DNA from: Phycisphaerae bacterium
GTDB taxonomy: Bacteria; Planctomycetota; Phycisphaerae; Sedimentisphaerales; SM23-30
Direction: 5' to 3'
DNA: 49,791 nucleotides
Assembly (NCBI GenBank): GCA_016342495.1
Contig: JAEIOG010000029.1
Coordinates: forward strand, 1 to 49,791
In this document: positions 3,131 to 42,232 of the stretch, one piece after another
Layout of the letters: the number at the start of each line of letters is the position of its first letter
Position numbering within the stretch: position 1 is the first letter of the stretch
Program-made: the position numbers and the translations under genes
The notes under the pieces: model-generated
Told to the model about the DNA's origin: nothing
Database searches by the model: none
What the model saw: the letters and a program-made list of their open reading frames with translations, nothing else

Positions 3131-3695
3131 TATTAGTTTCCTTAAAAAATAGTTAATTAAATTATTGAATAAACAGTGGTTGGGGTATATTTATGGAATT
3201 TTCATGATTGCACCTCCTTTTGGGTTTGGGGATTGAGAGTTATCGTTTTCTTGTTTAAGAATATTTAATTGTTGCAACAGGTTTGTATATTGCAATAGAT
3301 GTGCCAACAAAAAAATAATAGTGAAAATATTTAAGTTGAAATTCAGAAATGAGATGAATGTCGCCACCTGTTTGCATGCTAGTAGAAGAAGGAGAAGCGT
3401 TTTTGGATGCGTAATGCTTAGGTATGATAAGTCTATGTGTGTAAGCCAGTTATGAGGGATTTGTCAGTGATAAGCAGTGTTAGAGATTGATTGTTAAATA
3501 GGCATGTGTGGTCGGGATATATTTTTGAATGAAAATTTATTTAAAATTTGATCATTAGCAATTATTGTTGGAAATTAAATCATGAATAAAAGTAAAAAAA
3601 ATTGCAATAAAGTAAATAAAGTTGTAAAATGTCATGATAGGTTTACTAAATATCTTGGTAATTGTTTCTGTATATATTCATGATTGGAGAGTTTT
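3131..3695. other. Divergent intergenic region between the Ubl operon and the CARF regulator
   Basis: This 565-nt gap has no convincing gene. It holds the minus-strand sigma-54 promoter at 3291-3307 and, in the leader of the Ubl operon (3203-3218 on the minus strand), an unusually strong AAGGAGGTG ribosome site followed by ATG and a four-codon frame (Met-Lys-Ile-Pro-stop, 3205-3191). The A+T-rich 3400-3690 part is where enhancer sites for the activator would be expected. I see no clean inverted repeat there beyond weak matches. No sigma-54 element facing the regulator was found. Confidence 0.6.
3291..3307 (-). promoter_or_regulatory. Sigma-54 (-24/-12) promoter of the Ubl operon
   Basis: On the minus strand the sequence is TTGGCAC-ATCTA-TTGCA: the -24 element TGGCAC at 3306-3301 and the -12 element TTGCA at 3295-3291, separated by exactly 5 nt. 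This matches the sigma-54 consensus TGGCAC-N5-TTGCW at every defined base. Transcription would start near 3280, about 150 nt before the first gene. The divergent gene encodes a sigma-54 activator, which makes chance occurrence unlikely. Confidence 0.85.
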
Positions 3696-5219: not shown

Positions 5220-5255
5220 TCAATATTACACTATATAAATGTCTGAGGGCAAGCT

Positions 5256-14940: not shown

Positions 14941-15063
14941 ATACGCTCAGCGTCAGAGTCCCCAAGTAATTGATATGGGAATTTTAGATTTCATGTCTAG
15001 TGGGTGGTCAGGTTTTTGCTGGTTAAACTAACTGAATTGAATCCATATTTAGGAGTTCGTCAT

Positions 15064-17304: not shown

Positions 17305-17381
17305 TTTTTCAATTTTGATTTGTGTTTGTAATTTTTTGAGAAAAAAGTATTACGCAAAAGTTTTTCATGGGATAGGTGACA

Positions 17382-23653: not shown

Positions 23654-24535
23654 ATGGCTCAAACCGGCAAAAATATTCGTGAAACCCTCATTATCGATTC
23701 TGAATGTAATGAGATGTTTATGCCCATATCTTCTCCGAAGCTTAATTTTTTAAGGGAACATGGGATATGTTTTTCTGGGACAAGTATTCTTCGTAAGGGA
23801 TATGAGGTTTCCAGGAAAACGAATAATGCCCATTTGGTTCTTTATACTATTAGTGGGCAGGGGTGGCTTGAGACTGATGGCTATGAAGGCGTTTTAGGTC
23901 CTGGTCAGGTTTGGATATCAGCTGACGGTATGCCCCAGTCATATAAATTGCACGGACAGGAATGGCAGATTTTGTGGTTTGATCTTCAAAATCAAGCTCC
24001 CTGGACAGTAATAGGTGAGCTTGGTACTTGTGTTCGCCAGTCAGTTCAGGGTATAAGATTTAAACAGATAATGGATATGCTGATGTGGGAGTTTCAAACC
24101 GAAGGATTGCATGCAGATAGGATGATACAGCTTTGTTCGGAAATTATTCTTGGTTATCTTGAGAGAGAATTTGTTCTGGAGTATGACCCTTCAAGTTACA
24201 GTATTGCAAATCGTTTGCATCATCTTTTCTTTGATACAGTTAAATCCAGGATTAAGCACCCTTGGACGGTTAATGAATTGTCTGAAAAATCTGAGCTTTA
24301 TGTCTGCCCAGACCATTTCAGTCGTCTTTGCATCCAACATCTCAATATTTCTCCTATGAAAATGGTAAATCAGTTGCGGATGGAGCGAGCTATGGAGTTA
24401 CTTCACGGGACGGATTATCGGATACAGGAGATAGCCTTACTTGTCGGCTATCAGAATAATTTTGCATTTTCCACAGCCTTTAAAAGATGGACAGGGAAAT
24501 CGCCACGAGCTTTTCGGAATAATTTGCTTAAATAG
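23654..24535 (+). CDS. AraC-family transcriptional regulator (293 aa)
   Basis: The N-terminal cupin-like ligand domain (about 30-130) carries HLVLYTISGQGWLET and GPGQVWISADGMPQSY, as in AraC-binding domains. The C-terminal two-HTH domain (about 190-293) has SPMKMVNQLRMERAMELL and the signature IQEIALLVGYQNNFAFSTAFKRWTGKSPRAFR. It probably senses a sugar released by the locus and activates its genes. The conserved TTGCAAA elements at 16299, 24670 and 36104 are good candidates for its binding sites, though this is inference. The start at 23654 has only a weak GGAAA site; an imperfect AT-rich inverted repeat just upstream might serve autoregulation. Confidence 0.93.
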   Translation: MAQTGKNIRETLIIDSECNEMFMPISSPKLNFLREHGICFSGTSILRKGYEVSRKTNNAHLVLYTISGQGWLETDGYEGVLGPGQVWISADGMPQSYKLHGQEWQILWFDLQNQAPWTVIGELGTCVRQSVQGIRFKQIMDMLMWEFQTEGLHADRMIQLCSEIILGYLEREFVLEYDPSSYSIANRLHHLFFDTVKSRIKHPWTVNELSEKSELYVCPDHFSRLCIQHLNISPMKMVNQLRMERAMELLHGTDYRIQEIALLVGYQNNFAFSTAFKRWTGKSPRAFRNNLLK

Positions 24536-24945: not shown

Positions 24946-25854
24946 ATGAAGAAGTTATTAAGTGCAGTTATGGTATTGGCGATGGCAGGTTTTGTTTCTG
25001 CGGGCCAAGGTTTTAGTAACAATGGTGGCGACACATCTTGGGGCAATGCGGGCAACTGGAGCCAGGGTTATATTGTCGATGATTCTACAACTAATCCAGG
25101 CGATTTTGTTCCTCAGTGGGCTAATACTGTTGAATTCAGAAATAATGCTGTCATGGATATTGGCGATGGCGAAGCTCGTCAAACTTATGCGTTTCAGATG
25201 GGCGTATATGGATCTGACAATACCGTGCTGAATATGAGCGGTGGTTCTTTGACTGTTGGTGGTTGGGGAATGGATATTGGTCGCGGAAGTACCAGCAATG
25301 CAAATCATGATGGTGATGCGACAATCAATATGACCGGTGGTGTGATCAGCACTCCATGGTTGCTTGTTGGAAATGACTTTAATAGTTCAGATACCGCAAT
25401 TGTTGATATTGATTCTACAATCAATATGAGCAGTGGCATTATCAATGTTGGTAATCACATGCGAATTGGTATGAATCATAGTACAGGTACAGTCAATCTA
25501 AGCGGTGACGCAGTTGTTAATGTTGGCAGCATGCTTCAGATGAATACCAAAAATGGCTGGAATGAACCTGATGAAGCTTATGGTGCATTGTTGACAATCA
25601 ATGATGGTGCTGAAGTTCATGTCACTGGTGTTGGTGCTGGCACTCCTGAAGATATGGCAGCTGCTCTTGCAGAAGAAATGGGAATGTATAATATGTACAA
25701 AGATTTCGGTTGGATCACAACTGATGCTGATGATATTAAAATTGAATATAATGAAGCTACAAATATTATTTCAATTACTGCAGTTCCAGAACCTATGAGC
25801 ATGGTTATGCTGGGTCTTGGCGGTTTGGCTCTTATCAAAAGACGCAAAAACTAA
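24946..25854 (+). CDS. PEP-CTERM beta-repeat surface protein (302 aa)
   Basis: A signal peptide (MKKLLSAVMVLAMAGFVSAG) is followed by a W-x-NA-x-NW opening module and repeated strands of the kind LNMSGGSLTVG, INMTGGVIST, INMSSGIINVG and VNLSGDAVVNVG, as in autotransporter-like beta-helix repeats. The C terminus is a PEP-CTERM anchor: VPEP, a hydrophobic stretch and the RRKN tail. In PEP-CTERM/exosortase systems such proteins are processed and sorted to the outer surface or extracellular matrix. It is closely related in layout to the protein at 36287. The start has a GGAGTGAGG-type ribosome site. No enzyme motif is visible; glycan binding or scaffolding is the likely job. Confidence 0.9.
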   Translation: MKKLLSAVMVLAMAGFVSAGQGFSNNGGDTSWGNAGNWSQGYIVDDSTTNPGDFVPQWANTVEFRNNAVMDIGDGEARQTYAFQMGVYGSDNTVLNMSGGSLTVGGWGMDIGRGSTSNANHDGDATINMTGGVISTPWLLVGNDFNSSDTAIVDIDSTINMSSGIINVGNHMRIGMNHSTGTVNLSGDAVVNVGSMLQMNTKNGWNEPDEAYGALLTINDGAEVHVTGVGAGTPEDMAAALAEEMGMYNMYKDFGWITTDADDIKIEYNEATNIISITAVPEPMSMVMLGLGGLALIKRRKN

Positions 25855-25878
25855 CTGAAATGATTTTATGATTGAATA

Positions 25879-25915
25879 ATTGAGGTTTATGCAGTTATGT
25901 ATAAACCTCAATTTC
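25879..25915 (+). terminator. Stem-loop terminator after the PEP-CTERM gene
   Basis: ATTGAGGTTTAT (25879-25890) and ATAAACCTCAAT (25901-25912) are perfect 12-bp arms with a 10-nt loop, followed by a short TTT. It may be an attenuator rather than a full stop, since related genes follow in the same direction. Confidence 0.65.
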
Positions 25916-25999
25916 TATCAGAAGTAAAGGTTTAGAGGGAAACGCTGTTGAGAAAGACAGCGCAGAAGACAAAATAAAATAATACCTGGAGCGCTAACT

Positions 26000-27643
26000 A
26001 TGTTAAAAAAAGCTATATTCTTTTCATGCTTTGCTTTGCTGCTGGGCATGGCAGGCAATGCCATTGCGAATGAATACATTGGCCCTGAAGATCCCAACAG
26101 CGGTGACAATTTCTGGATGATCGAGTCAAATTGGCTGGATGGTTTGCCAAATATAAATAACACTGATGGCAGCCAATGGGCTGGAATGCCTCATCCTGAT
26201 ACTCTATGTATCGTTCAAGAGGGAGATGATGCCAGTGCTAAAGGTATTAATATTGGTTCTGAAGGTGTTGAAAACTGGATGGAGATTCGTGGTGGTACTG
26301 TTACCTGTACTTTTTTTGATGTTGGTCGAGGCGGTAATGGCCACCAATATGATGATGACACATTTGGGCATTTGTTGATGACAGGTGGCCATCTAATGAC
26401 AGAGATATTTTCGGTGCCTACACAATGGGAAGCTCCTCCTGTCGTAAGAGGCGAAGCAATTATTACCGGTGGGGTAATAGATGTTTCTAATTTGATGCAG
26501 ATTGGGCTTAATGCTGGCATTGGTCTTGTTGATTTTCAGGGTGGGGTAATAAATTGCAATAATTTTTGGATGAATAACAGTTGGGCAGAAACTACCAGTG
26601 AAGAAGCTACGCTTGATATGGCTGGCGGTGTTCTGGTATGCAATGGCAATATTGTCGATAAACTCAAAGGTTATATTGATCAGGATTGGATTGTATTTTA
26701 TGGTCAGCCAGCAACGGATGTCAGATATTATACATTGGATTTTGGCATTACCAATGAAGGCAAAACGACATTGGCAGCAGTTGACCCAGCGACGATTATT
26801 TTTGAAAATCCGTGGGGGCCAACACCTGGCAATGGCGATATTGTAGATATTACTGATGGCAATACAATTATTAGCTGGAATTCTGGTGATCCAGTTGGCA
26901 GCTATAAACATGATGTATTTTTTGGCACTTCACAGACACCTGATTTGGAAAGTCAAAACCAAAGTGAAACTTACTACAGTGCTCTTGCAAGTCAGCTTGA
27001 TACAACATACTATTGGAGAATAGCAGAAGTTGATGAAAGCTCAGGAGAAACTTACGAAGGGCCTATATGGCAGTTTACCACAGCAGACTTTCTTACCGTA
27101 GATGATTTCGATCCAAATGATCATGCAACTTACTGGAGTGACACAGGCAGTGCTGAATCGGTTTTGGTAGAAAATATGGGTTTGTCGATGCAGATCACTT
27201 GTCCAGCAGGTCAAAGCGGCAGTGCTTATAGAATTCCCCCTCAAAGCAATTGGGATCAGCAGGACTTGAAAGTATTGAGGCTGTCTTTGTTTGGCAATGA
27301 AGACAATGCTTTAAATGCGACATTGTCCTTGAAAATCAATGGTGTGATAATAAACTATGATAATGCTGATGGACAGTTGCAAGAAGCCCAATGGACACAA
27401 TGGTATATCTCATATTCTGAATTGGCAGAGTTGGGTATTGATCTGAACAATGTGACAAAGGTTGAGATTCTTGTTAGTGCTGGAGCTGAAGATTTTCAGT
27501 TGGATGTAGATGGTATTGAATTGACTCTTTTGGCGTGCGTAGAAATGCCTGAAGCTGATATTAATGGCGATTGTGTGGTTAATTTGTTGGATATGGCAGC
27601 ATTGTCTGCTGGCTGGATGGATTCAGGACATGACTTGCCATAG
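26000..27643 (+). CDS. Secreted beta-repeat/FN3-like protein with C-terminal dockerin (547 aa)
   Basis: The layout is: signal peptide (to about residue 24); beta-repeat module (25-270) with NWLDGLPNI, MEIRGGTVTC, LLMTGGHLM and ITGGVIDVSNLMQIG; one FN3-like module (about 290-370) ending in TTYYWRIAEVDESSGETYEGPIW; a beta-sandwich of CBM or NPCBM-like character (about 375-510); and a short dockerin-like calcium loop ADINGDCVVNLLDMAALSAGW near the C terminus. No catalytic motif is seen. It lies 145 nt after the PEP-CTERM gene and is followed by a paralogue of the same layout. A surface scaffold or glycan-capture role is inferred. Confidence 0.88.
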   Translation: MLKKAIFFSCFALLLGMAGNAIANEYIGPEDPNSGDNFWMIESNWLDGLPNINNTDGSQWAGMPHPDTLCIVQEGDDASAKGINIGSEGVENWMEIRGGTVTCTFFDVGRGGNGHQYDDDTFGHLLMTGGHLMTEIFSVPTQWEAPPVVRGEAIITGGVIDVSNLMQIGLNAGIGLVDFQGGVINCNNFWMNNSWAETTSEEATLDMAGGVLVCNGNIVDKLKGYIDQDWIVFYGQPATDVRYYTLDFGITNEGKTTLAAVDPATIIFENPWGPTPGNGDIVDITDGNTIISWNSGDPVGSYKHDVFFGTSQTPDLESQNQSETYYSALASQLDTTYYWRIAEVDESSGETYEGPIWQFTTADFLTVDDFDPNDHATYWSDTGSAESVLVENMGLSMQITCPAGQSGSAYRIPPQSNWDQQDLKVLRLSLFGNEDNALNATLSLKINGVIINYDNADGQLQEAQWTQWYISYSELAELGIDLNNVTKVEILVSAGAEDFQLDVDGIELTLLACVEMPEADINGDCVVNLLDMAALSAGWMDSGHDLP

Positions 27644-27759
27644 TTGTGCATCTTTTCGATAGCGATAAATATCTGCAAATGTTGTGTCAAATTCGATTTG
27701 GCGTATATAACAATCTAAATAATAAAAGCTTAGGTTATAAAGAATAAGAGGAAACGATT

Positions 27760-29367
27760 ATGAATAAAAGTTTGATAGTAATAATATTGTCTTTGGGATT
27801 GTTGTCTGGTAGTTTGTGTCAGGGGAACATCTTTACCGATAATGGCAATGACCATTTATGGCGAACATCTTTCAATTGGGATCCGGGGCTGCCCGGGGCC
27901 AATGCCGATGCTGATATGTCAGTAGAAGGCACGATTTGCGAAGTTAACAGTGCTTATGACATTACTTGTCGAGGCGTTTATGTTGGAGCTTATGGCGCTA
28001 CTAATGAAATGTTTATTTCTGGTGGCAATCATAATTTCACATGGCTAAATGTAGGCCGTGGCAATATCGCCAATAGCAATGGCACATTTACGATGACTGG
28101 TGGAACAATTGAGACAGGTGATTTTATTGTGCCAAGACAGTTTGATTCAGGTGGTGAGTATATGGTCGTCGGCAAAGCATTACTTCATGGTGGAACTATT
28201 ACTGTATTGCAGAATTTTGGCGTAGAAGATCGCATTCACGGGAAAGATGGCGGAGGCAATGGGACCATTGAGATGAAACCTGGCGCTAAAATCAGGGTTG
28301 CTGATACTGTTCCTGCAGGTGCTGAATATGGCAATGCTCATTTGGCAATTGTTGAAGATTTATTAGCAGGTTATATTGTTTCTACTGATCCAAATGAGGG
28401 TGAGACTTTTTCGAATATGATCGCCCTTAGCACTGAAACAGTTGATGAGCAGGATTATACAGTTATTCAGGCAGTGGGTACTACCAGCAAACAGGCATAT
28501 AATCCTGGTCCTGGCAGCTGGGCAATTGAGGGTTATACTCTTAGCTCACAGACAACAGAGATCAAATGGGATTCTGTGTCGAATCCATACAAAGAGTATT
28601 TGTATTTCAGTGAAGATAGATCTAAGGTTGCTAACAAAGATATTTCTGTCAGAACAGATGTTACCAGAGCAGTGAAGCCTTATTCTATGGGAACTCTCGA
28701 ATCTGGCAAGACATATTACTGGCAGGTTCAATCCCAGATCATGCTTACCAAGCACGATGGCCAGATTTGGTGTTTGCGTATTCCTGAAGCTGTTAAGGTC
28801 GATGACTTTGATACTTATACTGGCAGCTGGAATGCAGAAGGTTCTGCAGCATCAGCAATAGAAGATAATGCCGGTTTGAAATTCAGTCCATATGGCAAAA
28901 ATCTTAAAGTAACAGTTGGCCCAGGCCAAACCGGTGCGGTAAGTTCTGTTCCATTAGGAGCTGACTGGACAGTGTTGGATTCAATGGGTTTGTATGTTGA
29001 TGTTTATGGCAATGAACTCAATGACGCTTCAGCTACTTTGACGGTAACATTGAATGATACTGCCAGTGTAACTTATGCTGGATCATTACAGGATGTTCAT
29101 ACTGAAGCTAATGAGGTAGCGGTATGGAAGATACCCGTAGAAGATTTTGGTATTAGCATGGACAATATCACAAAAATTGCCTTTAGTGTTGATAATGCAG
29201 CTGGTGCAGGTGATGCTGTTGTTCATGTTGATAATATCAGATTGGTTGCTAAAGAATGTGTTGAGCGACCAGAAGCAGATGTTTCGGGTGATTGTATTGT
29301 TGATCTTACAGACCTTGAGATGATAGCACAAGGTTGGCTCACTGATGGATTGGGTGTGCTTGAATAG
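27760..29367 (+). CDS. Secreted beta-repeat/FN3-like protein with C-terminal dockerin (535 aa)
   Basis: This is a paralogue of the preceding protein: signal peptide (to about residue 21), beta-repeat module with DHLWRTSFNWDPGLPG, GVYVGAYGATNEMFISGG, FTMTGGTIETG; a looser FN3-like module (about 250-340, GKTYYWQVQSQ); a sandwich domain starting at VKVDDFDTYTGSWNAEG (about 346-500); and a dockerin-like loop ADVSGDCIVDLTDLEMIAQGW at the end. It differs in an Ala/Gly-rich middle and in a longer region between beta-repeat and FN3. GAGG precedes the ATG at 27760. There is no enzyme motif. A terminator separates it from the large glycosidase gene. Confidence 0.88.
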   Translation: MNKSLIVIILSLGLLSGSLCQGNIFTDNGNDHLWRTSFNWDPGLPGANADADMSVEGTICEVNSAYDITCRGVYVGAYGATNEMFISGGNHNFTWLNVGRGNIANSNGTFTMTGGTIETGDFIVPRQFDSGGEYMVVGKALLHGGTITVLQNFGVEDRIHGKDGGGNGTIEMKPGAKIRVADTVPAGAEYGNAHLAIVEDLLAGYIVSTDPNEGETFSNMIALSTETVDEQDYTVIQAVGTTSKQAYNPGPGSWAIEGYTLSSQTTEIKWDSVSNPYKEYLYFSEDRSKVANKDISVRTDVTRAVKPYSMGTLESGKTYYWQVQSQIMLTKHDGQIWCLRIPEAVKVDDFDTYTGSWNAEGSAASAIEDNAGLKFSPYGKNLKVTVGPGQTGAVSSVPLGADWTVLDSMGLYVDVYGNELNDASATLTVTLNDTASVTYAGSLQDVHTEANEVAVWKIPVEDFGISMDNITKIAFSVDNAAGAGDAVVHVDNIRLVAKECVERPEADVSGDCIVDLTDLEMIAQGWLTDGLGVLE

Positions 29368-29432
29368 TCATTGCTATTTAATACATTCGGTTGTGAGGGC
29401 AGTAAGTCAATTGAGAATAGTTTGAGAAATAA

Positions 29433-29467
29433 AAACATCCCTTCTTAATTTAGAAGGGGTGTTTTTT
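29433..29467 (+). terminator. Rho-independent terminator before the glycosidase gene
   Basis: ACATCCCTTCT (29435-29445) pairs with AGAAGGGGTGT (29452-29462, one G-U pair) around a 6-nt loop and is followed by TTTTT. The longest open frame of the next gene would begin inside it, which supports the later start at 29498. Confidence 0.85.
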
Positions 29468-29497
29468 GCAATTTATATAAAAGCAAATGGAGAAAAA

Positions 29498-32400
29498 ATG
29501 AGAATAAAGTCTTTGCATGGAATCGTTACGATTATAGCTATGATAAGCGTTGTTGCATTAGGTGACAGATTTACTGGTGCTGACCCGGATAGCGATTTAT
29601 GGAATGCCGCGGCAAACTGGTCGACAAATGAGATACCCCAAAGTAATGACTGGTGCGAAATGACAGTCGATGGCACCAGGTGTGTTATTGATGCAAGCCA
29701 TGTTGGTGATGACAGCGCAAAGGGGCGAGGGGTTTATGTTGGCTGTTATGGCGGCGACAATGAAATGTATATGACAGGCGGGGAGTTGACTTGTCAATAT
29801 TTCAATATTGGTCGCGGCGATGCTGGCAGCCAAAGTGATGGCTTTTTCAGAATGACAGATGGGTTGATTCATGCAATATCTGAAGTGATGATTCCAAATC
29901 AATTCAATAGTGGTCAGGGTAATATTAGCGGGCAAGTCGACCTTTGGGGCGGAACAATTATAACCGATGGTTTTTTCCTGATAGGCAGCAGGGTTAGCGG
30001 AGCATCTCATGGCGGAGTTGGCAAAATGGATGTCCGAGCTGGGACGCTAATAGTTAATGGCGATAGCTTTGATAGAATCCAGGGGTATATTAATGCTGGC
30101 TGGATAACCGCTTATGATGGCGATGGTGAATTTGATCTGGATTATAATGAAAGAAATGCGGGGAAAACAACTTTAACAGCATTCATGCAGGGAATAGCAG
30201 GCAATCTTGAGCCTTTGGATGAACAAGAGCAAGTAGAAGCTGATGTTGCTTTAAGATGGACAGCGGGCAAAAATGCTATTTCGCATAATGTTCGTTTTGA
30301 CACCAGCAATCCACCAGCTTTTGTTGTTAATCAGCCATTGGCACAGTGTAGCTATGCCCCTGAGCTATTGCCTGAAACGACTTATTATTGGCGAATAGAT
30401 GAGGTTGGCGATGAAGGTATTACCGAAGGAGAGACCTGGAGTTTTACAACAGAAGCAACTGCGGGAGAAGCAAAAAATCTTTCGCCTTTGAATGGTTCAG
30501 AAGATCGTATTTCTGGCAAGGTTTTCTGGTCAGCTGGCGACAATGCTAATTCGCATAATGTTTATTTTGGTAAGACAAATCCACCAGCTTTTATTGGTAA
30601 TCAGTCTCTGGACCAAACCAGCTATGAAAGTGAAGCTCTTGACCCGGGTGCGACATATTATTGGCGCATTGATGAGGTCAATTCTTTTGGAAGCACCGAA
30701 GGCCAGGTATGGTCATTTCATGTTGCCCAGCTGCCTTTAGGCGATCTAAATGCTGACAGGATAGTCGATTTATTTGATCTTCAACAGCTTTTGGCAAACT
30801 GGCTTGATATACATTGCCTGGAGCCTTTGTGGTGCGATGGTGCTGATATGAGCGAAGACGGCAAAGTGAATAATAGTGATTTTGCTATTTTGTCGTCGGA
30901 GATAATGGCGTATGAGACAGTGCAGCCACCTTATACAGATTATAATGCGATGCTCAGCCAAGAGATTCAGGACAAAAAACATGGATTCATGGCTGGGAAT
31001 CTGACTTATTATATTGGCGGCAAATATAATACCTGGGATAAAGCCGAAGATGAAACTCTGGGCTTGACTCATCCATTTTATCATGATCTTCGAAGCAGAG
31101 GCACTGGTATGGTTCAGGACGGTGATACCGGTTATGGTCATGATATGGCTGGTGGCTCATGGGATTTCTATCAATTTACTAAAGTAGCATATGGCACAGT
31201 TATTGTTGATGGCACTGAGTATCCTAATCCCGTGCCTGAGAAAATGTATTGGCAGCCCGATAAAATGATCTGTGAATACAGTGTTGGCGGTGTAAATATT
31301 CGCGAAGAAAAATTCATCGCAGAAAATGATGCAGCCTGTACGATCATTACTTCAGATACGCCAGTGACGCTTAAGTTTAATGGTCAGAGCTTTTGGTCAA
31401 GGAATAATAGCGTCACATCGACAGCGAGTTGTACTTATGTTCAAAATGATAATTGTATTCGTATCGCAGAAGGCGGCACTGTTACTGTCAAGCCCAACGA
31501 TCCAGGCCCACTTTCTGTTGGCAAGATGGTATATGATGGCATGACAACGGTTCTTACATCCGATAGACCAATGACTGAATATATTGCGTCAAGCGATGCA
31601 AATAATCAATGGTTTTATGAATTTAAAGTTAGCTGTGACAGTCAGGGTACAGCTATTGTCTGGTCGATGCATGATGAACAAAGTGTCGCAGTTGCAAACG
31701 CAATGGATATTGTTGGGGATCCAGCAGGGCAGAAGCAGGCTAAGTCTGATGAAATGAATGACAAACTCAATTATGAGATTCCATATTTCCGTTGCAGCGA
31801 CCAGGATATTGTCGATGTTTATTATTATCTCTGGGCAATTAATCTGATGTATTATATTGATGTGGATAAGGGTTGGGAACAATATCCTCATACTCAATCT
31901 GCGGTTAATAACTTTATGGGTATGCATCGCTATGACGCGGTATTCCAGATTCGAGTAGGTGCCTGGGCTGCGGATAAAGAAAAATACGCTAATGGTAATG
32001 CTTTGGTATGGAGTGCATTGTTGCCCACCGCTAAGCATCCTGGCATGGTAGCTGATAATATGGGAATTGGTTGGCATTCAGGGATTTATGGCCCTGAGGT
32101 AATCGCCCATGTGCCACAGGCCTGGCTGATTTATGAACACTCAGGCGATCTGGAATTTCTGGCTCGAGCTTATGCATTCTATAAACCATTGTTCTGGAAT
32201 GGAGCAGCTGGTCATTGGGGATATATATTTGAAGCTGGCGAATCTCTATGCAAGATGGCAGAAACATTGGGCTATCCCGAAGATGGCAGCCATTGGCGCA
32301 GTAAGATGGGACTAGATAATGTTCAGAATTGGCTAAATGCCAGATGGGATGCAGAAAAACATATCTTTCTGCCTCAAACTCCTCAGGGATGGACATCATT

Positions 32401-33115
32401 TGCCTATATGGCTATGGACGAATTTCCCGATGAGTGGGCTAAAGAAATGACAGAGCATTGGGCATTGGATAGTGTCGATGGATTTTTCACAGAAGTGCCA
32501 TTGGCTGTGCGTGCCCTGAAAGACTGGGATACCTTACATGGTGTAGATAATGTATTTGTTGTCACCCCTGATACAAATTGGTATGCAACACGCGGGATGT
32601 ATAAACATCATGTAGGCCAAGCTGCTAATACCTGTGCTCTGGGTCATCTTAAAAATTATAATATGTATTGGGGTATCCCGATTGCTCCTGAAAGTTTTGA
32701 TATTAATTTCGAGCCTTGGGGCGATCAATACTCTAATTTTAATACAGGTAAAATTCTGCTGATTCTGGAAGGCATGTCAGGTATTTCTTATTCGATAGTC
32801 GATGATGAATTTGAAGTAGCCGACTGTATGCCTTTGGAATGGGACTTTATGGAGTTCTATATTCCTGTCAATAAGGATGGGCAAACCAACTGGACCCGTG
32901 TAAGAACTGACCGTAACAGCGATGGTTCCAGCGTTGAAAAAACAGTAACCGTCGAAGGTAATAAACTCCAGAAGCTCAAAATCCAGCCTTGGCTCGACGA
33001 AAAAACTTTGTTGAGCGCCCCAGCTGGATATATTGATCAGACTCCTATCGGACATATTGGTTATAGCTTTGAAGGTACTGAAGATGAAACTATCGTAATT
33101 TATTTGCAGAAATAG
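29498..33115 (+). CDS. Modular secreted glycosidase: beta-repeat, 2 FN3-like, dockerin, (alpha/alpha)6 domain (1205 aa)
   Basis: Order: signal peptide; beta-repeat module (about 25-235); two FN3-like modules (about 245-330 and 335-415), each with NPPAF ... TYYWRIDEV; a two-loop dockerin (GDLNADRIVDLFDLQQLLANW ... GADMSEDGKVNNSDF, about 418-475); then about 720 residues of catalytic-type sequence from PPYTDYNAMLSQEIQDKKHGF. The last part is homologous to the protein at 42233, shares PYFRCSD, YPHTQSAVNNFMG, FEPWGD-type and GHLKNYN-type motifs, and looks like an (alpha/alpha)6-barrel glycosidase of the MGH1/GH63-like kind. The family is not certain and the acid and base residues cannot be named safely. 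The start at 29498 follows TGGAG. Its stop is 4 nt before the next ATG, so it is coupled to the modular sulfatase. Confidence 0.85.
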   Translation: MRIKSLHGIVTIIAMISVVALGDRFTGADPDSDLWNAAANWSTNEIPQSNDWCEMTVDGTRCVIDASHVGDDSAKGRGVYVGCYGGDNEMYMTGGELTCQYFNIGRGDAGSQSDGFFRMTDGLIHAISEVMIPNQFNSGQGNISGQVDLWGGTIITDGFFLIGSRVSGASHGGVGKMDVRAGTLIVNGDSFDRIQGYINAGWITAYDGDGEFDLDYNERNAGKTTLTAFMQGIAGNLEPLDEQEQVEADVALRWTAGKNAISHNVRFDTSNPPAFVVNQPLAQCSYAPELLPETTYYWRIDEVGDEGITEGETWSFTTEATAGEAKNLSPLNGSEDRISGKVFWSAGDNANSHNVYFGKTNPPAFIGNQSLDQTSYESEALDPGATYYWRIDEVNSFGSTEGQVWSFHVAQLPLGDLNADRIVDLFDLQQLLANWLDIHCLEPLWCDGADMSEDGKVNNSDFAILSSEIMAYETVQPPYTDYNAMLSQEIQDKKHGFMAGNLTYYIGGKYNTWDKAEDETLGLTHPFYHDLRSRGTGMVQDGDTGYGHDMAGGSWDFYQFTKVAYGTVIVDGTEYPNPVPEKMYWQPDKMICEYSVGGVNIREEKFIAENDAACTIITSDTPVTLKFNGQSFWSRNNSVTSTASCTYVQNDNCIRIAEGGTVTVKPNDPGPLSVGKMVYDGMTTVLTSDRPMTEYIASSDANNQWFYEFKVSCDSQGTAIVWSMHDEQSVAVANAMDIVGDPAGQKQAKSDEMNDKLNYEIPYFRCSDQDIVDVYYYLWAINLMYYIDVDKGWEQYPHTQSAVNNFMGMHRYDAVFQIRVGAWAADKEKYANGNALVWSALLPTAKHPGMVADNMGIGWHSGIYGPEVIAHVPQAWLIYEHSGDLEFLARAYAFYKPLFWNGAAGHWGYIFEAGESLCKMAETLGYPEDGSHWRSKMGLDNVQNWLNARWDAEKHIFLPQTPQGWTSFAYMAMDEFPDEWAKEMTEHWALDSVDGFFTEVPLAVRALKDWDTLHGVDNVFVVTPDTNWYATRGMYKHHVGQAANTCALGHLKNYNMYWGIPIAPESFDINFEPWGDQYSNFNTGKILLILEGMSGISYSIVDDEFEVADCMPLEWDFMEFYIPVNKDGQTNWTRVRTDRNSDGSSVEKTVTVEGNKLQKLKIQPWLDEKTLLSAPAGYIDQTPIGHIGYSFEGTEDETIVIYLQK

Positions 33116-33119
33116 AATA

Positions 33120-35948
33120 ATGTTTTTTAAACACTTAAAGTTAATAATTATCGTTTTACTAATATGTCTAGCTGCAAATGTTATTGCAGCTGATGTAAGC
33201 TACACTGGCAATGGTGATGATCATCTCTGGACCAATGCCGAAAACTGGAATGGGCCTATACCCGACGATAGTTCGGTTGGAGCATCGTTTAATAAAGAAG
33301 GCACAGAAGTAGAAATTACCAATGGCGTAAATGCTGCCTGCAAAGGCTTTATGCTAGGGATGTATGGAGTGACCAATTCCGCTACAATATCTGGCGGCGG
33401 TCTTACCTGTTCATGGCTTGACATTGGCCGAGCTAATCAAAATGGCGGCAATGGCAGTTTGACGATAACTGATGGCAATGTTACTGTTTCGGGAAGTGTA
33501 AAGCTTCCGACCCAATTTTCAACAATGACCAATATTGATAAGATGGGTACAGGGCATATAGATTTATTGGGCGGGACGCTCACCTGTGGCTCATTTTATA
33601 TGGGCAATCAGCAGGTCGGAAATAATGGCGGCATTGGAACTATGGAAATAACCCATGGCACACTTGTCGTAAATGGCAATCAGACCGCACTGCTTCAGGG
33701 ATACATCAATAGCACCTGGATCACGTTTTATGGCGGTGGTGGCGATTATGAATTAGACTATGGTGTTAAAAACTCAGGCAAAACCACCCTGAGTGCTGTA
33801 AGCACTGGTCAAGCTTTCAATCCAAAGCCAAACCATAATGCTGCAAATGTCCCAATTGACAAGGTGCTGAACTGGTCCGTCGAAGCAACTACAGGTTCGG
33901 TTAATGTATATTTTGGGACAGCTGATCCGCCAACATTTATCCGTAACCAGCCCCTAACCGAAAAAACATATGCCCCTGGTCAGTTGGCATATAATACAAC
34001 TTACTATTGGCGTATTGATCAAGTTGATGGTCAGGATGAACTGCAAGGCAATGTCTGGTCATTTAAAACAGAAGGGCCTCCAGCGCAAGCGATGAATCCA
34101 GAGCCTGCTAATTCTGGAAATGGTATAAATCCCAATATAAAATTAAGCTGGACTGATATTCCAGATTCTGATTCATATGATGTTTATTTCGGCGATAGTA
34201 ATCCGCCAGCATTTATTGGCACACAGGACAGCAATGTTTATGATCCGCCAATGCTGTCAGCTAATCAAATTTATTATTGGCGCATTGATTCTCAGAATCA
34301 GCATGGCAAAACCGTTGGCGACGTGTGGAGCTTTACAGTTTCAAATTTCCCTGATGGCGATATTAATGGCGACTGGTTTGTCGATCTGCAGGATTTAAAA
34401 CTTTTCTTTTCGCATTGGCTTGAGGAAGGTTGTCAGCTCAGTAATTGGTGCAGCAATGCTGATGCCAATCAGGATTCTATTGTTAATTTACTGGATTATA
34501 GAATGCTCCAGTCACAGTTTAGCCATCGAAAACCAAATATTATTATTTTCTATACCGACGATCAAGGCTGGGCCGAAACCTCTGTTCCAATGGCTCAAGG
34601 CAGAGCAGATAGCTGTAGTGATTTCCTACAAACTCCAGCACTTGAAAAGATGGCTCAGCAGGGCATGGTCTTTTCCAATGCCTATTCTTGTGCACCAACT
34701 TGTACTCCCAGCCGAGCTGGAATCCAGTTTGGCAAAACTCCAGCTCGACTGAAATATAGCGTTGTCCATGATCGCTTAGCTCATGACAGAGGCATCGACC
34801 TGAAAGATCAGCTTTCAATTGCTCAGCTGGTAAAATCTATTGATTCTGAATATGTTACTGCTCATTTTGGCAAATGGGGCTTTAGTCCCAGATCCCCAGA
34901 TCACGCAGAATATGATCAAAGTGATGGCAACACTAATAATGGTGAAGGCGATTTTCTTTCAGTTCAGGACAGGACCCCATTACCGCCTGACGACCCCAAA
35001 CGAATTTTCAGTATCGCTGACCGTACTGATGCTTTTATCGAAGAGCAGGTCGCCCAGGGAAAACCATTTTTCATGCAGCTGTCCCACTATGCTGTTCATG
35101 TAGATAGCATGGCATTAGCTGAAACAATCGAAAAATATCGAAATCTGCCCGCTGCTTCAGACCCCAAATATCGGGGCGAAGATGCTTATGTTTATGCAGC
35201 TATGATCGAAAATCTTGACACAGCTCTTGGGAGACTATTGCAGAAAGTAGAAGAACTTGGGATTAAAGATAATACTTATATTATTTTTACCTCTGACAAT
35301 GGTGGTGGATTCAGAGGCAATAAACCTTTAAAAGGTGGCAAAGCTAATCTCTGGGAGGGTGGCTTACGTGTCCCAACTGTGATCTGTGGCCCTGGAGTGC
35401 TAAAAGAAACCTATTGCGACACGCCAATTGCTGCATGGGACTTTTTCCCAACGATCAATGAAATAATTGGTGGCCAACCACTGCCAGCTGAATATGATGG
35501 CGGAAGCATTGTCGATTTACTTATGAAAGGCAATGATGGCAATATCAATCGAGGCACAAAAGAACTATTCTTCCATTTTCCATGGTATGGTTCAGCTCCA
35601 CCAGTATCAGCAATGCGTGATGGTGATTATAAACTTATGATGAGCCTTAACAATGATGAATATCGCTTGTTTGATCTTTCTACAGATATTGGCGAAGAAA
35701 ATGACCTGAAATATGCTATGCCTGATCTTGCCCAGCAGATGCATGAAAGGCTTTTGCAATATCTTGAAGATGTCGATGCTGAAGATGTAGAGGACATGAG
35801 GCTCGCCAGGATAAATGAAGTGCAGGGATATATTCAGGACGAATTAGCTAAGCCAAATCCCGATCCTGCAAGAATCCAAAGCCTACAAGAACAAATTGAA
35901 GTGTTCCAGCGGAATCGCCTGCTGGACATGGATGGCAACATATTTTAA
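33120..35948 (+). CDS. Modular secreted sulfatase: beta-repeat, 2 FN3-like, dockerin, CTPSR sulfatase (942 aa)
   Basis: After a signal peptide come a beta-repeat module (about 25-235, DHLWTNAENWNGPIPD), two FN3-like modules (NPPAF- or DPPTF-type, ending TYYWRIDQV and IYYWRIDSQ), and a two-loop dockerin (GDINGDWFVDLQDLKLFFSHW ... ADANQDSIVNLLDY, about 415-460). From residue 465 there is a complete sulfatase: NIIIFYTDDQGW, the formylglycine motif CTPSR (Cys near 528), HFGKWG, and FTSDNGGGFRGNKPLKGGKANLWEGG. The catalytic half is strongly similar to the Tat-exported sulfatase at 40689, which lacks the adaptor part. No ribosome site precedes the ATG, 4 nt after the glycosidase stop, so translation is probably coupled. 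It should desulfate a glycan at the cell surface. Confidence 0.92.
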   Translation: MFFKHLKLIIIVLLICLAANVIAADVSYTGNGDDHLWTNAENWNGPIPDDSSVGASFNKEGTEVEITNGVNAACKGFMLGMYGVTNSATISGGGLTCSWLDIGRANQNGGNGSLTITDGNVTVSGSVKLPTQFSTMTNIDKMGTGHIDLLGGTLTCGSFYMGNQQVGNNGGIGTMEITHGTLVVNGNQTALLQGYINSTWITFYGGGGDYELDYGVKNSGKTTLSAVSTGQAFNPKPNHNAANVPIDKVLNWSVEATTGSVNVYFGTADPPTFIRNQPLTEKTYAPGQLAYNTTYYWRIDQVDGQDELQGNVWSFKTEGPPAQAMNPEPANSGNGINPNIKLSWTDIPDSDSYDVYFGDSNPPAFIGTQDSNVYDPPMLSANQIYYWRIDSQNQHGKTVGDVWSFTVSNFPDGDINGDWFVDLQDLKLFFSHWLEEGCQLSNWCSNADANQDSIVNLLDYRMLQSQFSHRKPNIIIFYTDDQGWAETSVPMAQGRADSCSDFLQTPALEKMAQQGMVFSNAYSCAPTCTPSRAGIQFGKTPARLKYSVVHDRLAHDRGIDLKDQLSIAQLVKSIDSEYVTAHFGKWGFSPRSPDHAEYDQSDGNTNNGEGDFLSVQDRTPLPPDDPKRIFSIADRTDAFIEEQVAQGKPFFMQLSHYAVHVDSMALAETIEKYRNLPAASDPKYRGEDAYVYAAMIENLDTALGRLLQKVEELGIKDNTYIIFTSDNGGGFRGNKPLKGGKANLWEGGLRVPTVICGPGVLKETYCDTPIAAWDFFPTINEIIGGQPLPAEYDGGSIVDLLMKGNDGNINRGTKELFFHFPWYGSAPPVSAMRDGDYKLMMSLNNDEYRLFDLSTDIGEENDLKYAMPDLAQQMHERLLQYLEDVDAEDVEDMRLARINEVQGYIQDELAKPNPDPARIQSLQEQIEVFQRNRLLDMDGNIF

Positions 35949-36286
35949 AGTATCTCTGGGTTGTAGCGCAAAACCTTAATGTCGGCTGGATATATTAAAT
36001 TCAGAGATGGGCTGATCATTTTGGCGTTCTGCTTGAAACACCAGGGATTTCGACCTTAATTCCGAAAGTTGACGAAAAAATCGATTGTCAATGTATGCAG
36101 TATTTGCAAATGTTTTTACCGGTCTTGCCTATTTACAAATGCCACTGCATGTGCAATATTAATGGGATATGTAAATCAGTGTCCTACAATTAAGTGTTTA
36201 TAAAATGGTCAATATATTTTAACAACTTGCAAAATTTTAATAGCACCTGTCAGGTTCCCGGTCTTCGCCGGATTAGGAGATTTGAA
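35949..36286. other. Non-coding region with the third promoter element
   Basis: No gene is seen in this 338-nt stretch. No clear terminator follows the modular sulfatase gene. The conserved element at 36104-36160 sits about 130 nt before the next start. Confidence 0.55.
36104..36160 (+). promoter_or_regulatory. Conserved promoter/operator element, copy C
   Basis: TTGCAAATGTTTTT, 11 nt, then CTATTTACAAAT, leading into -35 TTTACA (36132), a 17-nt spacer and a poor -10 AATATT (36155). The words TTGCAAA and TTACAAA are 29 bp apart, as in copies A and B. Confidence 0.65.
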
Positions 36287-37201
36287 ATGAAGAGGTTAGT
36301 TTGCTTAATTATTGCAATGTCGTTTAACAGTATTTGTGAGGGAAACATCTTTACTGACGCCACAGGTGACCATTACTGGGGTAACCCTGACAACTGGAGT
36401 GATTTTCATATTCCCAATAGTTGTACCTTGAATGGAAGGGCCAATGCTGTTAGTTTTTTAAGCAATACTATGATGAATATTGGTTCTGGTGAGGACCGTC
36501 ACTGTTACGGTTTTCACCTAGGCGTTTATGGATCAGGTAATGACGTTGTAGTAAATATTGATGGCGGTTCCTTGTGCGTTGGCCCCTGGGGTGTGGAGGT
36601 TGGCTTTGGTGATTCTGGTTATAGCGATTATGACACTACTGTCAACATGACAGGCGGCGTTATTAAAACATCCTCGCTAATGGTTCCAAGGCATTTTGAT
36701 AATTCAGGAACAGTTAGTGACGGTGTCGGTGTTATTAATGCCAGCAGTGGCGTGATCAATGCAAATTTTCTTAATATAGGTATGGGGGATGGAGTTGGTA
36801 CTGTTAATCTTAGTGGCGATGCAGTTGTTAATTTAGATACATCGCTTCAGATGAATACTTTTTTGGCCGGCTGGGATGAGCTTTCATTGGCTCATACCGC
36901 TTCTTTGGTTATTGATGACAGTGCTCATATTACAATAGGCGGTTACGGTGATTACACACCTGGCCCTGGTGATCCAACCATTGAAGAAATCATTCAGATG
37001 GAATTAGATATCTATCAGGCTTATATTGATTTTGGCTGGATTACCTCCAATACAGGTCCTTTGGCAATGAATTATAATGAAGCAACTGATACAATCGTTA
37101 TTGTACCAGAGCCAGCGACAATGCTGCTTCTTGGGCTTGGCGTTATGCTTGTTCGTAGAAAAAAGTTAGTGGCAGGGGTCCAAACAGACTATAGAATTTA
37201 G
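36287..37201 (+). CDS. PEP-CTERM beta-repeat surface protein (304 aa)
   Basis: The signal peptide is MKRLVCLIIAMSFNSICEG. The mature part opens with DHYWGNPDNWSDFHIP and has repeats such as VNIDGGSLCVG, VNMTGGVIKTS, INASSGVINANFLNIGMG and VNLSGDAVVNLD, a parallel-strand pattern. The PEP-CTERM sorting signal is VPEPATMLLLGLGVMLVRRKK, followed by an unusual 12-residue tail. It is a paralogue of the protein at 24946, with the middle SSGVIN/LSGDAVVN part almost identical. I use the ATG at 36287, with TAGGAG 7 nt before it, instead of a start 31 codons earlier. It precedes the third GH127 gene by 51 nt and probably shares its transcript. Confidence 0.9.
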   Translation: MKRLVCLIIAMSFNSICEGNIFTDATGDHYWGNPDNWSDFHIPNSCTLNGRANAVSFLSNTMMNIGSGEDRHCYGFHLGVYGSGNDVVVNIDGGSLCVGPWGVEVGFGDSGYSDYDTTVNMTGGVIKTSSLMVPRHFDNSGTVSDGVGVINASSGVINANFLNIGMGDGVGTVNLSGDAVVNLDTSLQMNTFLAGWDELSLAHTASLVIDDSAHITIGGYGDYTPGPGDPTIEEIIQMELDIYQAYIDFGWITSNTGPLAMNYNEATDTIVIVPEPATMLLLGLGVMLVRRKKLVAGVQTDYRI

Positions 37202-37252: not shown

Positions 37253-39448
37253 ATGTTTATGCGTTTGATGATAGTTTTTTCTCTTTGTACAGCTGTTTTT
37301 GCCGCTGAGACTAAAGAGCATATAAAAGTTCAAACTGACAGAAATGTTATTCATCCCTTTAATTACGAAGGTGTTGAACTTTTGCCTGGCCGATTGCATG
37401 ACCAGTATAACCAGGTGAAAGATTTTTATCTTAAACTGCGTAATAATGATATTTTAAAGGGTTTTCGTCAACGCCATAAAAGCCATACTCCTGGCAGAGA
37501 GCTTGGCGGCGCATATAGTGATTCAGGTTTGACTTTTGGCCAATGGTTAAGTGCCTATGCCAGAATGTATAAAGTTACAGGTGATACAGCGATTAAGGAT
37601 AAAGTTGTTTCCCTGATGGAAGAATGGGCCAAGACTATCGATGAAGATGGTTTTTTTGGCTACCATAATCCGCCCCACAATCCCGGCCATTATATCTATG
37701 ATAAAATGGTAGGTGGCCTGGTCGATATTTATGAATATACAGGCAATGAAAACGCTATCAAGCATCTCGATACGATAACCACCTGGGCAGAAAAAAATCT
37801 TGATCGGAGCAATCCTTTTGCCCTGCCTTCAGAGTGGTACACTCTAAATGAAAATCTTTATAGAGCATATCTTCTAACAGGCGATAAGCGCTATTATGAC
37901 TTTGGCAAAGTTTGGGAATACAATGACTACTGGGATATTTTTGCTAAAGAGCAAAGCCCATTTCAGGATATATTAAAGTCAAACCCAAAGCATGAAAGCT
38001 ATCATGGCTATAGTCATGTCAATGCTTTTAGCGGTGCCTCTTTAGCCTATGAAGTTACAGGCCAGCGACATTATCTCGATGCCGTTGTCAATGGCTATAA
38101 ATTCCTGAAAGAAACCCAGCTGTTCGCTACAGGCGGTTTTGGCCCAGAAGAAGGTTTTATTGTGCCCAATAGTATGCCTGAGATTCTCGAAGGCGATCAG
38201 CGGGGTGAATCTAATGTTCCTGTTCGGTTTCATTTTGAAACAGCTTGTGGCTCCTGGGCAGCTTTTAAAATGAGCCGTGATTTAATGAGATTTACAGGCG
38301 ATGCTCAATATGGCGACTGGATCGAGCGTTTAATCTATAATGGTGTCGGTGCCATGCCTCCTATGAATGAAGATGGGATGATAATGTATGGCTCTTGCTA
38401 TCATCACAAGGGCGCCCAGAAGAAGCTTTTTACTGTCTGGTTTTGCTGTAGCGGCACCTTGCCCATCGATGTTGTTGATTATCATAATCTTATTTATTTT
38501 CACGATAAAGACAATCTTTATGTCAATCTTTTTGTCCCTTCAAAAGTGCAATGGGATGGCCCTGACGGTAAAGTTAAATTAACCCAAAAGCATCGTTTCC
38601 CCGAAAAAGATTTTGTCAATTTTGAAATCGATCCTGAAATTTCAGGAGAATTTGGAGTAAAATTCAGAGTGCCACTGTGGGCAGATAAAGGGATAAAAGT
38701 CAAAGTCAATGATAAAGAAGTTGATGTCAAATGCATCCCTGGCAAATGGGCAACTATTCGTAGAAATTGGAAAAAGGGTGATAAAGTTTCGCTTCAGTTT
38801 GATATGACCGCAAGAGGCGAACCCTTACCTGGATGCATAACACCCCTAGCGGTAATGTGTGGTCCGGTTGTAATGGTGCAGGCATCAGCGCGTGAGGAAG
38901 AAGGTTGGCTTGCAAAAGTTAGCGATTTGCGTTTCCCAGCAGATTGGCTGTCAGTAGGTAGCCAGGTAAGTGTTGATCAAACTCGGGGTTTGCATTCAAA
39001 CCAGGTTTTGCGACCATTTTATGATATGAATGTCGGCGAATATTATCAGATGTATTTTGATCGCTGGGGGCAAAAAGAAATATTGCCTGAAGAAATGGAA
39101 TTTAAAGGCGATTGGACTACAAAAGGAGTCAGTCGATATTCAGCCAAACCAGGAAGCAGCTTTGAATGTAAATTTAATGGCTCTGCAATTATCTGGGAAG
39201 GGCGCCGTCATAATAACGCTGGAATCGCCAAGATTTTTATTGATGGAAAAGAAGTTGAAAATGTCGACCAATATGGCTACACTGATGTGTATGTACAAAG
39301 GCTTGATCAGCGTGAAGTTCCTTTCCGCTATTCGCTATCAAACTTAGGTGGCGGTGAGCATCATATTAAAGTGACGTTATCGCCCCAAAAGAATCCTTCC
39401 TCAAAGGGAACCGAAATAAATATTAAGAGATTGTTAGTTTTTCCATAA
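37253..39448 (+). CDS. Secreted GH127-like glycosidase, third copy (731 aa)
   Basis: A signal peptide (FMRLMIVFSLCTAVFAA) precedes a DUF1680/GH127-type (alpha/alpha)6 domain. The active-site signatures are FHFETACGSWAAFKMSRDLM (Glu and Cys near 327) and FTVWFCCSGTLP (Cys pair near 397). They keep the Glu-Cys-Cys-Cys set but differ from the two other paralogues, where the second motif is CxCCPxN. The beta-sandwich region follows (about 430-600), and a C-terminal domain (about 610-731, from DRWGQKEILPEEMEF) resembles a carbohydrate-binding sandwich. This subgroup may have a different specificity from beta-L-arabinofuranosidase. AAGGAG lies upstream of the ATG at 37253. Confidence 0.9.
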   Translation: MFMRLMIVFSLCTAVFAAETKEHIKVQTDRNVIHPFNYEGVELLPGRLHDQYNQVKDFYLKLRNNDILKGFRQRHKSHTPGRELGGAYSDSGLTFGQWLSAYARMYKVTGDTAIKDKVVSLMEEWAKTIDEDGFFGYHNPPHNPGHYIYDKMVGGLVDIYEYTGNENAIKHLDTITTWAEKNLDRSNPFALPSEWYTLNENLYRAYLLTGDKRYYDFGKVWEYNDYWDIFAKEQSPFQDILKSNPKHESYHGYSHVNAFSGASLAYEVTGQRHYLDAVVNGYKFLKETQLFATGGFGPEEGFIVPNSMPEILEGDQRGESNVPVRFHFETACGSWAAFKMSRDLMRFTGDAQYGDWIERLIYNGVGAMPPMNEDGMIMYGSCYHHKGAQKKLFTVWFCCSGTLPIDVVDYHNLIYFHDKDNLYVNLFVPSKVQWDGPDGKVKLTQKHRFPEKDFVNFEIDPEISGEFGVKFRVPLWADKGIKVKVNDKEVDVKCIPGKWATIRRNWKKGDKVSLQFDMTARGEPLPGCITPLAVMCGPVVMVQASAREEEGWLAKVSDLRFPADWLSVGSQVSVDQTRGLHSNQVLRPFYDMNVGEYYQMYFDRWGQKEILPEEMEFKGDWTTKGVSRYSAKPGSSFECKFNGSAIIWEGRRHNNAGIAKIFIDGKEVENVDQYGYTDVYVQRLDQREVPFRYSLSNLGGGEHHIKVTLSPQKNPSSKGTEINIKRLLVFP

Positions 39449-39478
39449 GAATATAATAACGTTTTAGGAGTTTTGTTA

Positions 39479-40641: not shown

Positions 40642-40688
40642 GCTTAAAATAGGATTTGACTAGCCAAATAATTGAAGGCACACTCATT

Positions 40689-42227: not shown

Positions 42228-42232
42228 TTGAT

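Follow-up and report, generated by a model that had tools for sequence, protein, structure and literature searches.

A shared module on PEP-CTERM proteins and dockerin-bearing enzymes in a Phycisphaerae carbohydrate locus, with no cohesin found in its assembly

The 49,791-nucleotide stretch analysed here, called the window throughout, is contig JAEIOG010000029.1 of the Phycisphaerae bacterium assembly GCA_016342495.1 (Sedimentisphaerales). It encodes six neighbouring proteins, p1 to p6, in which PEP-CTERM sorting signals, calcium-type loops, dockerins and enzyme domains are combined with one recurring N-terminal module. The locus raises a puzzle that is met in the order more widely, that of many dockerins with no cohesin in the same genome, and the set defined here offers an alternative, as what is common to the anchors and the enzymes is the module and not the loops. 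The reading preferred here, which on the sequence evidence has about an even chance of being right, is that the shared module binds glycan and co-localises the enzymes of a sulfated-polysaccharide locus with its anchor proteins.

In what follows, C denotes a contig of the window's own assembly (5.42 Mb in 221 contigs, 95% complete, the window being C191), G a searched genome and L a DNA stretch. Searches for cohesins and for the module covered 98 genomes, the own genome included. Cut-offs were 22.9 bits for Dockerin_1 (PF00404) and 20.7 bits for PEP-CTERM (PF07589) in Pfam, and 16 bits for TIGR02595 in NCBIfam.

Six proteins with a common N-terminal module

Six open reading frames (ORFs) of the same direction start at 24946, 26000, 27760, 29498, 33120 and 36287, the longest ORF starting further upstream for p4 (29459) and p6 (36194). 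Their parts are as follows, the Fn3 pair having been modelled for p4 only.

24946..25854, +, p1: signal-peptide-like start, module and PEP-CTERM, with no enzyme or loop (ORF, Pfam, NCBIfam, blastp)
24997..25779, +, p1 shared module (alignment, own-genome profile search)
25780..25848, +, p1 PEP-CTERM sorting signal (TIGR02595, 20.9 bits; PF07589, 19.3 bits, below cut-off)
26000..27643, +, p2: module, Fn3-like part, VDDF-type domain with no Pfam match, one C-terminal calcium-type loop
26063..26788, +, p2 shared module (alignment, own-genome search)
27557..27595, +, p2 single loop DINGDCVVNLLDM, 28 residues from the end (regular expression; no Dockerin_1 match)
27760..29367, +, p3: module with a diverged C-terminal part, VDDF-type domain, one C-terminal calcium-type loop
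27817..28482, +, p3 shared module (alignment, own-genome search)
29278..29316, +, p3 single loop DVSGDCIVDLTDL (regular expression; no Dockerin_1 match)
29498..33115, +, p4: module, two Fn3, two-loop dockerin, enzyme-like domain of ~700 residues
29555..30199, +, p4 shared module, mainly beta strands in the model (alignment, structure model)
30191..30733, +, p4 two fibronectin-III-like domains, limits approximate (Foldseek, VIA-align 2, model residues 213-393)
30737..30904, +, p4 mid-chain two-loop dockerin with C-x5-C between the loops (PF00404, 23.3 bits, whole-genome hit)
30941..33112, +, p4 enzyme-like domain with no Pfam or NCBIfam match (paralogue ORF 42221, 36% over this part)
33120..35948, +, p5: module, two Fn3-like domains, two-loop dockerin, sulfatase (Pfam, blastp)
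33183..33806, +, p5 shared module (alignment, own-genome search)
34356..34517, +, p5 mid-chain two-loop dockerin with C-x5-C between the loops (PF00404, 23.5 bits)
34533..35759, +, p5 sulfatase domain (PF00884, E 1e-39; PF16347)
36287..37201, +, p6: signal-peptide-like start, module and PEP-CTERM (ORF, Pfam, NCBIfam, blastp)
36338..37102, +, p6 shared module (alignment, own-genome search)
37103..37162, +, p6 PEP-CTERM sorting signal (PF07589, 26.9 bits, above cut-off)

An earlier sequence-only reading of this DNA had described these proteins as one family, and alignment bore this out, all six sharing a homologous N-terminal module. Each of the 15 module pairs scored above its own 20 residue-shuffles (30.4-186 bits against shuffle maxima of 17.3-23.5), with the weakest pairs at 30-33 bits. 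By blastp the closest pairs were p1 and p6 (43% over 289 columns) and p4 and p5 (39% over 459 columns, Fn3 and dockerin included). The module is a bounded domain of ~205-260 residues with an NW opening, and invariant W, NW, G and GG positions run through the aligned copies. The same reading had two proteins ending in PEP-CTERM; these are p1 and p6, both over the TIGR02595 cut-off. As in PEP-CTERM/exosortase sorting systems, the signals occur together with an exosortase, of which the genome holds one (PF09721, E 9.9e-51, contig C20) along with 42 PEP-CTERM hits.

Dockerins, single loops and the search for cohesin

It had also been proposed that four of the proteins carry dockerin loops, in two cases in the middle of the chain. 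Loops are indeed present in four, and p4 and p5 have mid-chain dockerins that belong to Dockerin_1 (23.3 and 23.5 bits); the loops of p2 and p3, one in each, are not dockerins by Pfam, as no Dockerin_1 match was obtained for these proteins at E 0.01 over the whole chain or at E 0.1 on the C-terminal parts alone. Both single loops have a cysteine at loop position 6. More widely, such a cysteine was seen in 29 of 43 single loops near the C-terminus and in the first loop of 4 of 22 two-loop cases, in rough classes drawn by a regular expression, where some 'single' rows conceal a second loop. Single C-terminal loops were of the type DxNGDCxVDLxDL, with Cys frequent and often a further Cys, and look like a separate tag rather than half of a dockerin. 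Of 41 rows inspected by eye, 7 have a C-x5-C pair between their two dockerin loops, namely p4, p5 and five more proteins of the own genome; this suggests a disulfide-stapled dockerin subtype.

The absence of cohesin from the window, as first noted, extends to the whole assembly as far as two profile searches show. In its 5.42 Mb, which hold 37 dockerin hits, the cohesin family PF00963 gave 0 matches, and a profile built from eight cohesin stretches of relatives, which recognises solved cohesins, gave one weak match only (E 0.17). This candidate, on contig C186, was rejected, its frame reading by inspection as a GAF/HlyD-like fusion. The genome-wide search for cohesin-like domains that had been suggested as a check thus found no conventional cohesin in this 95%-complete assembly, and a cohesin-bearing scaffoldin in the same genome, by which a cellulosome is recognised, was not found there. 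The enzymes of the window resemble those of cellulosomes in carrying a type I dockerin, but differ in that no cohesin was found in the assembly, the dockerin is mid-chain and the enzymes are a sulfatase and a domain with no family match.

A conventional system, in which p4 and p5 dock by their loops onto a cohesin that escaped the searches, has diverged too far or comes from neighbours, would fit the above-cut-off dockerins of these two proteins and an assembly that is 95% complete in 221 contigs. It would also fit the presence of cohesins in 5 of the 98 genomes, two of which (G015 and G033) have the module as well. However, the two profile searches left only the false-looking match at E 0.17, and no cohesin was found in the one-contig genomes G020 and G024 despite their 18 and 21 dockerin hits, so that gaps in the assembly are not the whole reason for the absence. 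In G015 and G033 (L137 and L136), moreover, the cohesins are two copies together with a dockerin inside one subtilase chain of ~2000 residues. A conventional system is considered very doubtful here. Dockerins without a cohesin are common in the own order and alone are not remarkable. Scaffoldin-type arrangements have been reported in the phylum: the excerpted text of one source presents a 'Planctosome' model for freshwater Planctomycetes (PMC6461901), and that of another describes one scaffoldin-like Coh2-Doc1-Coh1 protein and 13 dockerin-fusion proteins in Limihaloglobus sulfuriphilus, a genus which a reference title in the same source places in Sedimentisphaerales (PMC11557425). As far as these excerpts go, both share dockerins and the phylum with the window organism and both keep a cohesin, unlike the own assembly, in which none was found.

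Two further observations concern dockerin-bearing frames. In the one-contig genome G033 the reading frames of the dockerin hits at G033:C1:1036195-1036296 and 1033169-1033270 each contain a single in-frame TGA. On contig C90 (L142), a 636-residue frame at 5493-7403 has a dockerin and a PEP-CTERM signal in one chain and is a possible surface-anchored dockerin.

Relatives, fold and distribution of the module

A Pfam scan of the six window proteins gave no family match within any module. In the 77 aligned modules that make up the module profile, Pfam matches were limited to PF14262 (Cthe_2159; 2/77 at E <= 0.01, best E 0.0012, the most of any family), G8 (1/77) and Flg_new (1/77), and NCBIfam matches to TIGR04393 (6/77, E <= 0.01) and LptA (1/77). 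A PHROGs search with two modules gave nothing. In the PDB, the sole match of the module profile at E <= 0.001 was to 4peu/4phb (E 6e-7 over 88 residues), which carries the label 'Uncharacterized protein' and which we take to be Cthe_2159. The module profile accordingly appears distantly related to a sugar-binding beta-helix protein, from which the window proteins differ in having no PF14262 match and in the fusion of their module to PEP-CTERM, Fn3, dockerin and enzyme parts. For Cthe_2159 of Clostridium thermocellum, the excerpted text of its source gives a beta-helix structure and binding to celluloses and polygalacturonic acid (PMC6712302), and a beta-solenoid adhesin cluster is described, again in an excerpt, as distantly related to PF14262 (PMC9210967).

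The structure prediction that had been suggested for the module was run with AlphaFold2 on residues 20-475 of p4, using an alignment of 29 rows. The module consisted mainly of strands; over model residues 1-210, all ten-residue blocks had a predicted local distance difference test (pLDDT) score >= 83 except one at 68. It was followed by a weak linker (pLDDT 47-48), the Fn3 domains and a dockerin of low score (~65 falling to 36). From the repeats, the strands and the 4peu match we infer that the module is probably a small beta-solenoid. A single-sequence prediction of the whole of p5 was discarded (pLDDT 35).

The own genome has 12 strong module copies in two clusters only, six in the window and six on contig C2, with one further weak match elsewhere (E 1e-4). 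At E <= 1e-6 the module was found in 35 of the 98 genomes. In a phylum sample of 392 genomes, with at most 7 candidates scored per genome, 33 matched at E <= 1e-8 and all matches at E <= 1e-15 were confined to the own genome or its order. By their records, 21 module relatives belong to Phycisphaerae, Phycisphaerales, Sedimentisphaerales or Planctomycetota, with one from Pontiella desulfatans. The enzyme families found beside the module are sulfatase, GH99, GH3, GH97, GH16, pectate-lyase-like and phosphoesterase.

These results bear on a plainer explanation, that p1 to p6 are ordinary modular secreted proteins and enzymes in which the module is a filler beta-repeat, locally duplicated, and the loops bind calcium within the chain only. 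Some module members do match the T5SS/PEP-CTERM-associated repeat TIGR04393, local duplication would explain the clustering, and the Cys pair between the dockerin loops of p4 and p5 suggests a self-contained fold. However, no TIGR04393 match was listed among the window proteins, whose module is a bounded domain with an NW opening, and a filler would not be expected to be restricted at E <= 1e-15 to one order of the phylum sample, nor would it need to recur as a matched set alongside PEP-CTERM and loop proteins. This explanation is regarded as unlikely. What is new here is the module family, which has no name and is nearly restricted to the order, together with its matched sets of PEP-CTERM, loop and enzyme proteins. 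No description of module-type dockerin/PEP-CTERM sets was found among titles and abstract openings of the open-licence literature, which is weak evidence of novelty.

Gene sets that combine anchors, loops and enzymes

The architecture of module proteins was surveyed in a first set of 40 stretches (39 from relatives and the C2 cluster), the window and 21 named loci, and was later extended by 31 stretches round the remaining module hits to give 72 stretches in total, many of them on short contigs (L145 overlaps L085 of G033 and is not counted separately). The first set gave 98 distinct module proteins. Of these, 18 had PEP-CTERM and 22, of ~500 residues, had a single loop at the C-terminus; among larger proteins, 24 had loops and 5 a C-terminal loop; a further 17 had neither feature and 12 were cut by contig ends. 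Six of the 17 show a loop in the tail by eye, and the loop counts, drawn by a loose regular expression, are upper limits. Dockerin_1 was matched at E <= 0.001 in 11 of 58 larger or cut proteins. Module proteins with PEP-CTERM are short and have the module as their sole domain, and the regular expression found a loop in none of the 18.

An uncut PEP-CTERM module protein is present in 22 of the 72 stretches (2 in the own genome, 20 in relatives), and 20 of these 22 hold another, non-PEP module protein (cut by a contig end in L079 and L172). The partner was present in 13/13 such cases in the first 41 stretches and in 7/9 of those added. As a control, a PEP-CTERM ORF was found in 1 of 20 own-genome stretches round module-free dockerins. 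A looser regular-expression count of any PEP-CTERM-like ORF (22/41 module stretches, 1/20 controls) probably includes spurious ORFs and is not used. Within the own genome, PEP-CTERM lies within 10 kb of 3/3 dockerins on module proteins against 2/34 other dockerins (Fisher p 0.0013, the three representing only two clusters). Of the two suggestions made earlier, a different partner for the dockerins or an anchoring role for the PEP-CTERM proteins, the second gains some support from the exosortase, from the 20/22 stretches with a further module protein and from the proximity within 10 kb, while nothing shows the loops binding PEP-CTERM proteins. As the link between anchors and enzymes, the module that they share is a better candidate than the loops. 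A link to type IV pilin-like genes was dropped, these being found in 8/41 module and 3/20 control stretches.

In each of the two clusters of the own genome, enzyme forms of the module protein stand beside single-loop and PEP-CTERM ones. On C2 there are a PEP-CTERM protein, two single-loop proteins of 514 and 508 residues, a 719-residue enzyme with Dockerin_1 and a pectate-lyase-like protein of 1488 residues with a regular-expression loop and no Dockerin_1 match, a composition much like that of the window. An order in which two ~500-residue single-loop proteins precede a PEP-CTERM protein and a larger module protein was seen in C2, L088, G033 (L145/L085), L167 and L171. All but C2 are of family f6, and the recurring set is therefore perhaps one inherited cassette.

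It might be supposed that the module binds itself, so that the bare modules of the PEP-CTERM proteins form a base at the surface on which module enzymes stack edge to edge, replacing cohesin and dockerin. The sharing of a stretch by short module-only PEP-CTERM proteins and another module protein in 20/22 cases would agree with this, and a quick module tree of 85 rows was examined (first set only, the 31 later stretches being left out). This tree placed the PEP-CTERM modules among enzyme modules at several places. A non-PEP module from the same stretch lay closer than every PEP module from other stretches in 8 of 15 cases; shuffling the labels 2000 times gave a mean of 4.4, with 8 reached in 0.4% of shuffles, relatedness of the stretches being uncontrolled. 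However, the same pattern is expected from genes duplicated locally and from genomes of common ancestry; the nearest non-PEP module came from the same stretch in only 5/15 cases (shuffles mean 0.5, maximum 7), p1 and p6 not being among the five; 40 of 82 inner branches are weak; and two stretches, given below, hold PEP modules alone. The pairing of modules by stretch on the tree is weak, and self-binding is held to be quite improbable.

A proposed role for the module

Under the preferred reading, that of a shared glycan-binding module, the six genes would form the surface-display part of a polysaccharide-utilization locus. The module would be a putative binder of an anionic glycan, either the substrate or exopolysaccharide of the cell itself, or both. 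The exosortase would cleave p1 and p6 and attach them on the outside of the cell, so that they present bare modules at the surface, and p2 and p3 would combine the module with another putative binding domain. As enzymes, p4 and p5 would have the same module as a targeting tag, so that the whole set may gather on the same glycan. Their dockerin loops would act as calcium-bound linkers or bind a partner other than cohesin, with no cohesin coming from the own cell, and the single loops of p2 and p3 would be C-terminal tags of another kind.

Several results weigh against this reading. Dockerins are common in the order, also where no module match was found at 1e-6, as in G006. A single module ORF is present in 43 of the 72 stretches, and many module enzymes have no PEP-CTERM partner nearby; in none of these 43 stretches is the module ORF an uncut PEP-CTERM protein, those of L159 and L160 being cut at a PEP motif. 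Stretches L146 and L157, which reach contig ends, hold two PEP-CTERM module proteins each and no other module protein. In G020, where the window locus is conserved (see below), no PEP-CTERM module protein lies within 20 kb of the locus stretch L056; L057 has one ~87 kb away, and a strict need for a local anchor is therefore disfavoured. As regards sugar binding, the six window proteins have no PF14262 match and the 4peu match spans 88 residues of a repetitive fold; in fold searches with the p4 fragment (PDB, VIA-align 2, BFVD), Fn3-type matches filled the lists, so that these searches say nothing on the fold of the module itself.

A broader form of the idea, tentative and unlikely rather than likely, is that the set represents a cohesin-independent enzyme display, in which a beta-solenoid module stands bare on exosortase-anchored PEP-CTERM proteins and serves as a tag on varied enzymes, assembly is by module-module or module-matrix contact, and the mid-chain dockerin loops are reduced to calcium-locked linkers. 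If true, this would be another way to hold many enzymes at the surface, useful for enzyme display, and would help in understanding the uptake of sulfated glycans by such bacteria.

The surrounding carbohydrate locus and its counterpart

The six genes are surrounded by further genes of carbohydrate use:

15004..16158, +, MalK-type ATP-binding cassette (ABC) ATPase
17376..18875, +, sulfatase
18912..21452, +, GH127 with a weak C-terminal F5/8-type match
21545..23494, -, GH127
23654..24535, +, AraC-type regulator
37253..39448, +, GH127
39473..40603, +, aldose 1-epimerase
40656..42227, +, sulfatase with no module or dockerin match
42221..45232, +, paralogue of the p4 enzyme-like domain, with PA14 and Fn3_assoc and no module or dockerin match
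45381..46655, +, ABC extracellular solute-binding protein
46652..48411, +, two ABC permeases (46652-47530 and 47527-48411)

With p5 included, the locus totals three sulfatases and three GH127 proteins beside an ABC importer. Glycan-cleaving enzymes, importer and regulator are co-located, as in an ABC-type polysaccharide utilization locus. A sulfated, arabinose-containing polysaccharide is inferred as the substrate, arabinose because Pfam names the GH127 domain after beta-L-arabinofuranosidase.

The enzyme-like domain of ~700 residues (30941-33112 and 42221-44540) was seen in three copies, with 36-57% identity to that of p4. It has no Pfam match, no NCBIfam match (searched for p4 only) and no PDB relative (best E 0.12). 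Lying beside GH127 and sulfatases, it is a candidate for a new glycoside hydrolase family.

The window locus is conserved in the one-contig genome G020, with counterparts of the three GH127 proteins (47-55%) and of the sulfatases (58-67%). The p4 counterpart aligns at full length (49% over 1225 columns) and has the module and dockerin loops, its dockerin scoring 21.4 bits, just below the Pfam cut-off. The sulfatase closest to p5 (65%) aligns to p5 residues 463-942 only and has no module part; the module-Fn3-dockerin cassette would therefore have been gained by one sulfatase copy in the window genome or lost in G020. The module fusion thus appears to be mobile, and p5 and its counterpart form a natural pair of fused and unfused sulfatases.

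Two observations were made elsewhere in the window. Positions 3684-12301 form a defence island in which Mokosh-like genes, namely an MkoA-like helicase (5256-9539), a weak MkoB match (9475-10785) and an MkoB/DrmC-like PLD protein (10772-12301), are preceded by an RtcR_PspF2-type CARF-AAA-HTH regulator (3684-5219). The CARF regulator may form a control circuit with Mokosh. Next to this island, at 12269-14323, an NMT1/THI5-like binding domain is fused to PAS domains, an unusual ligand sensor.

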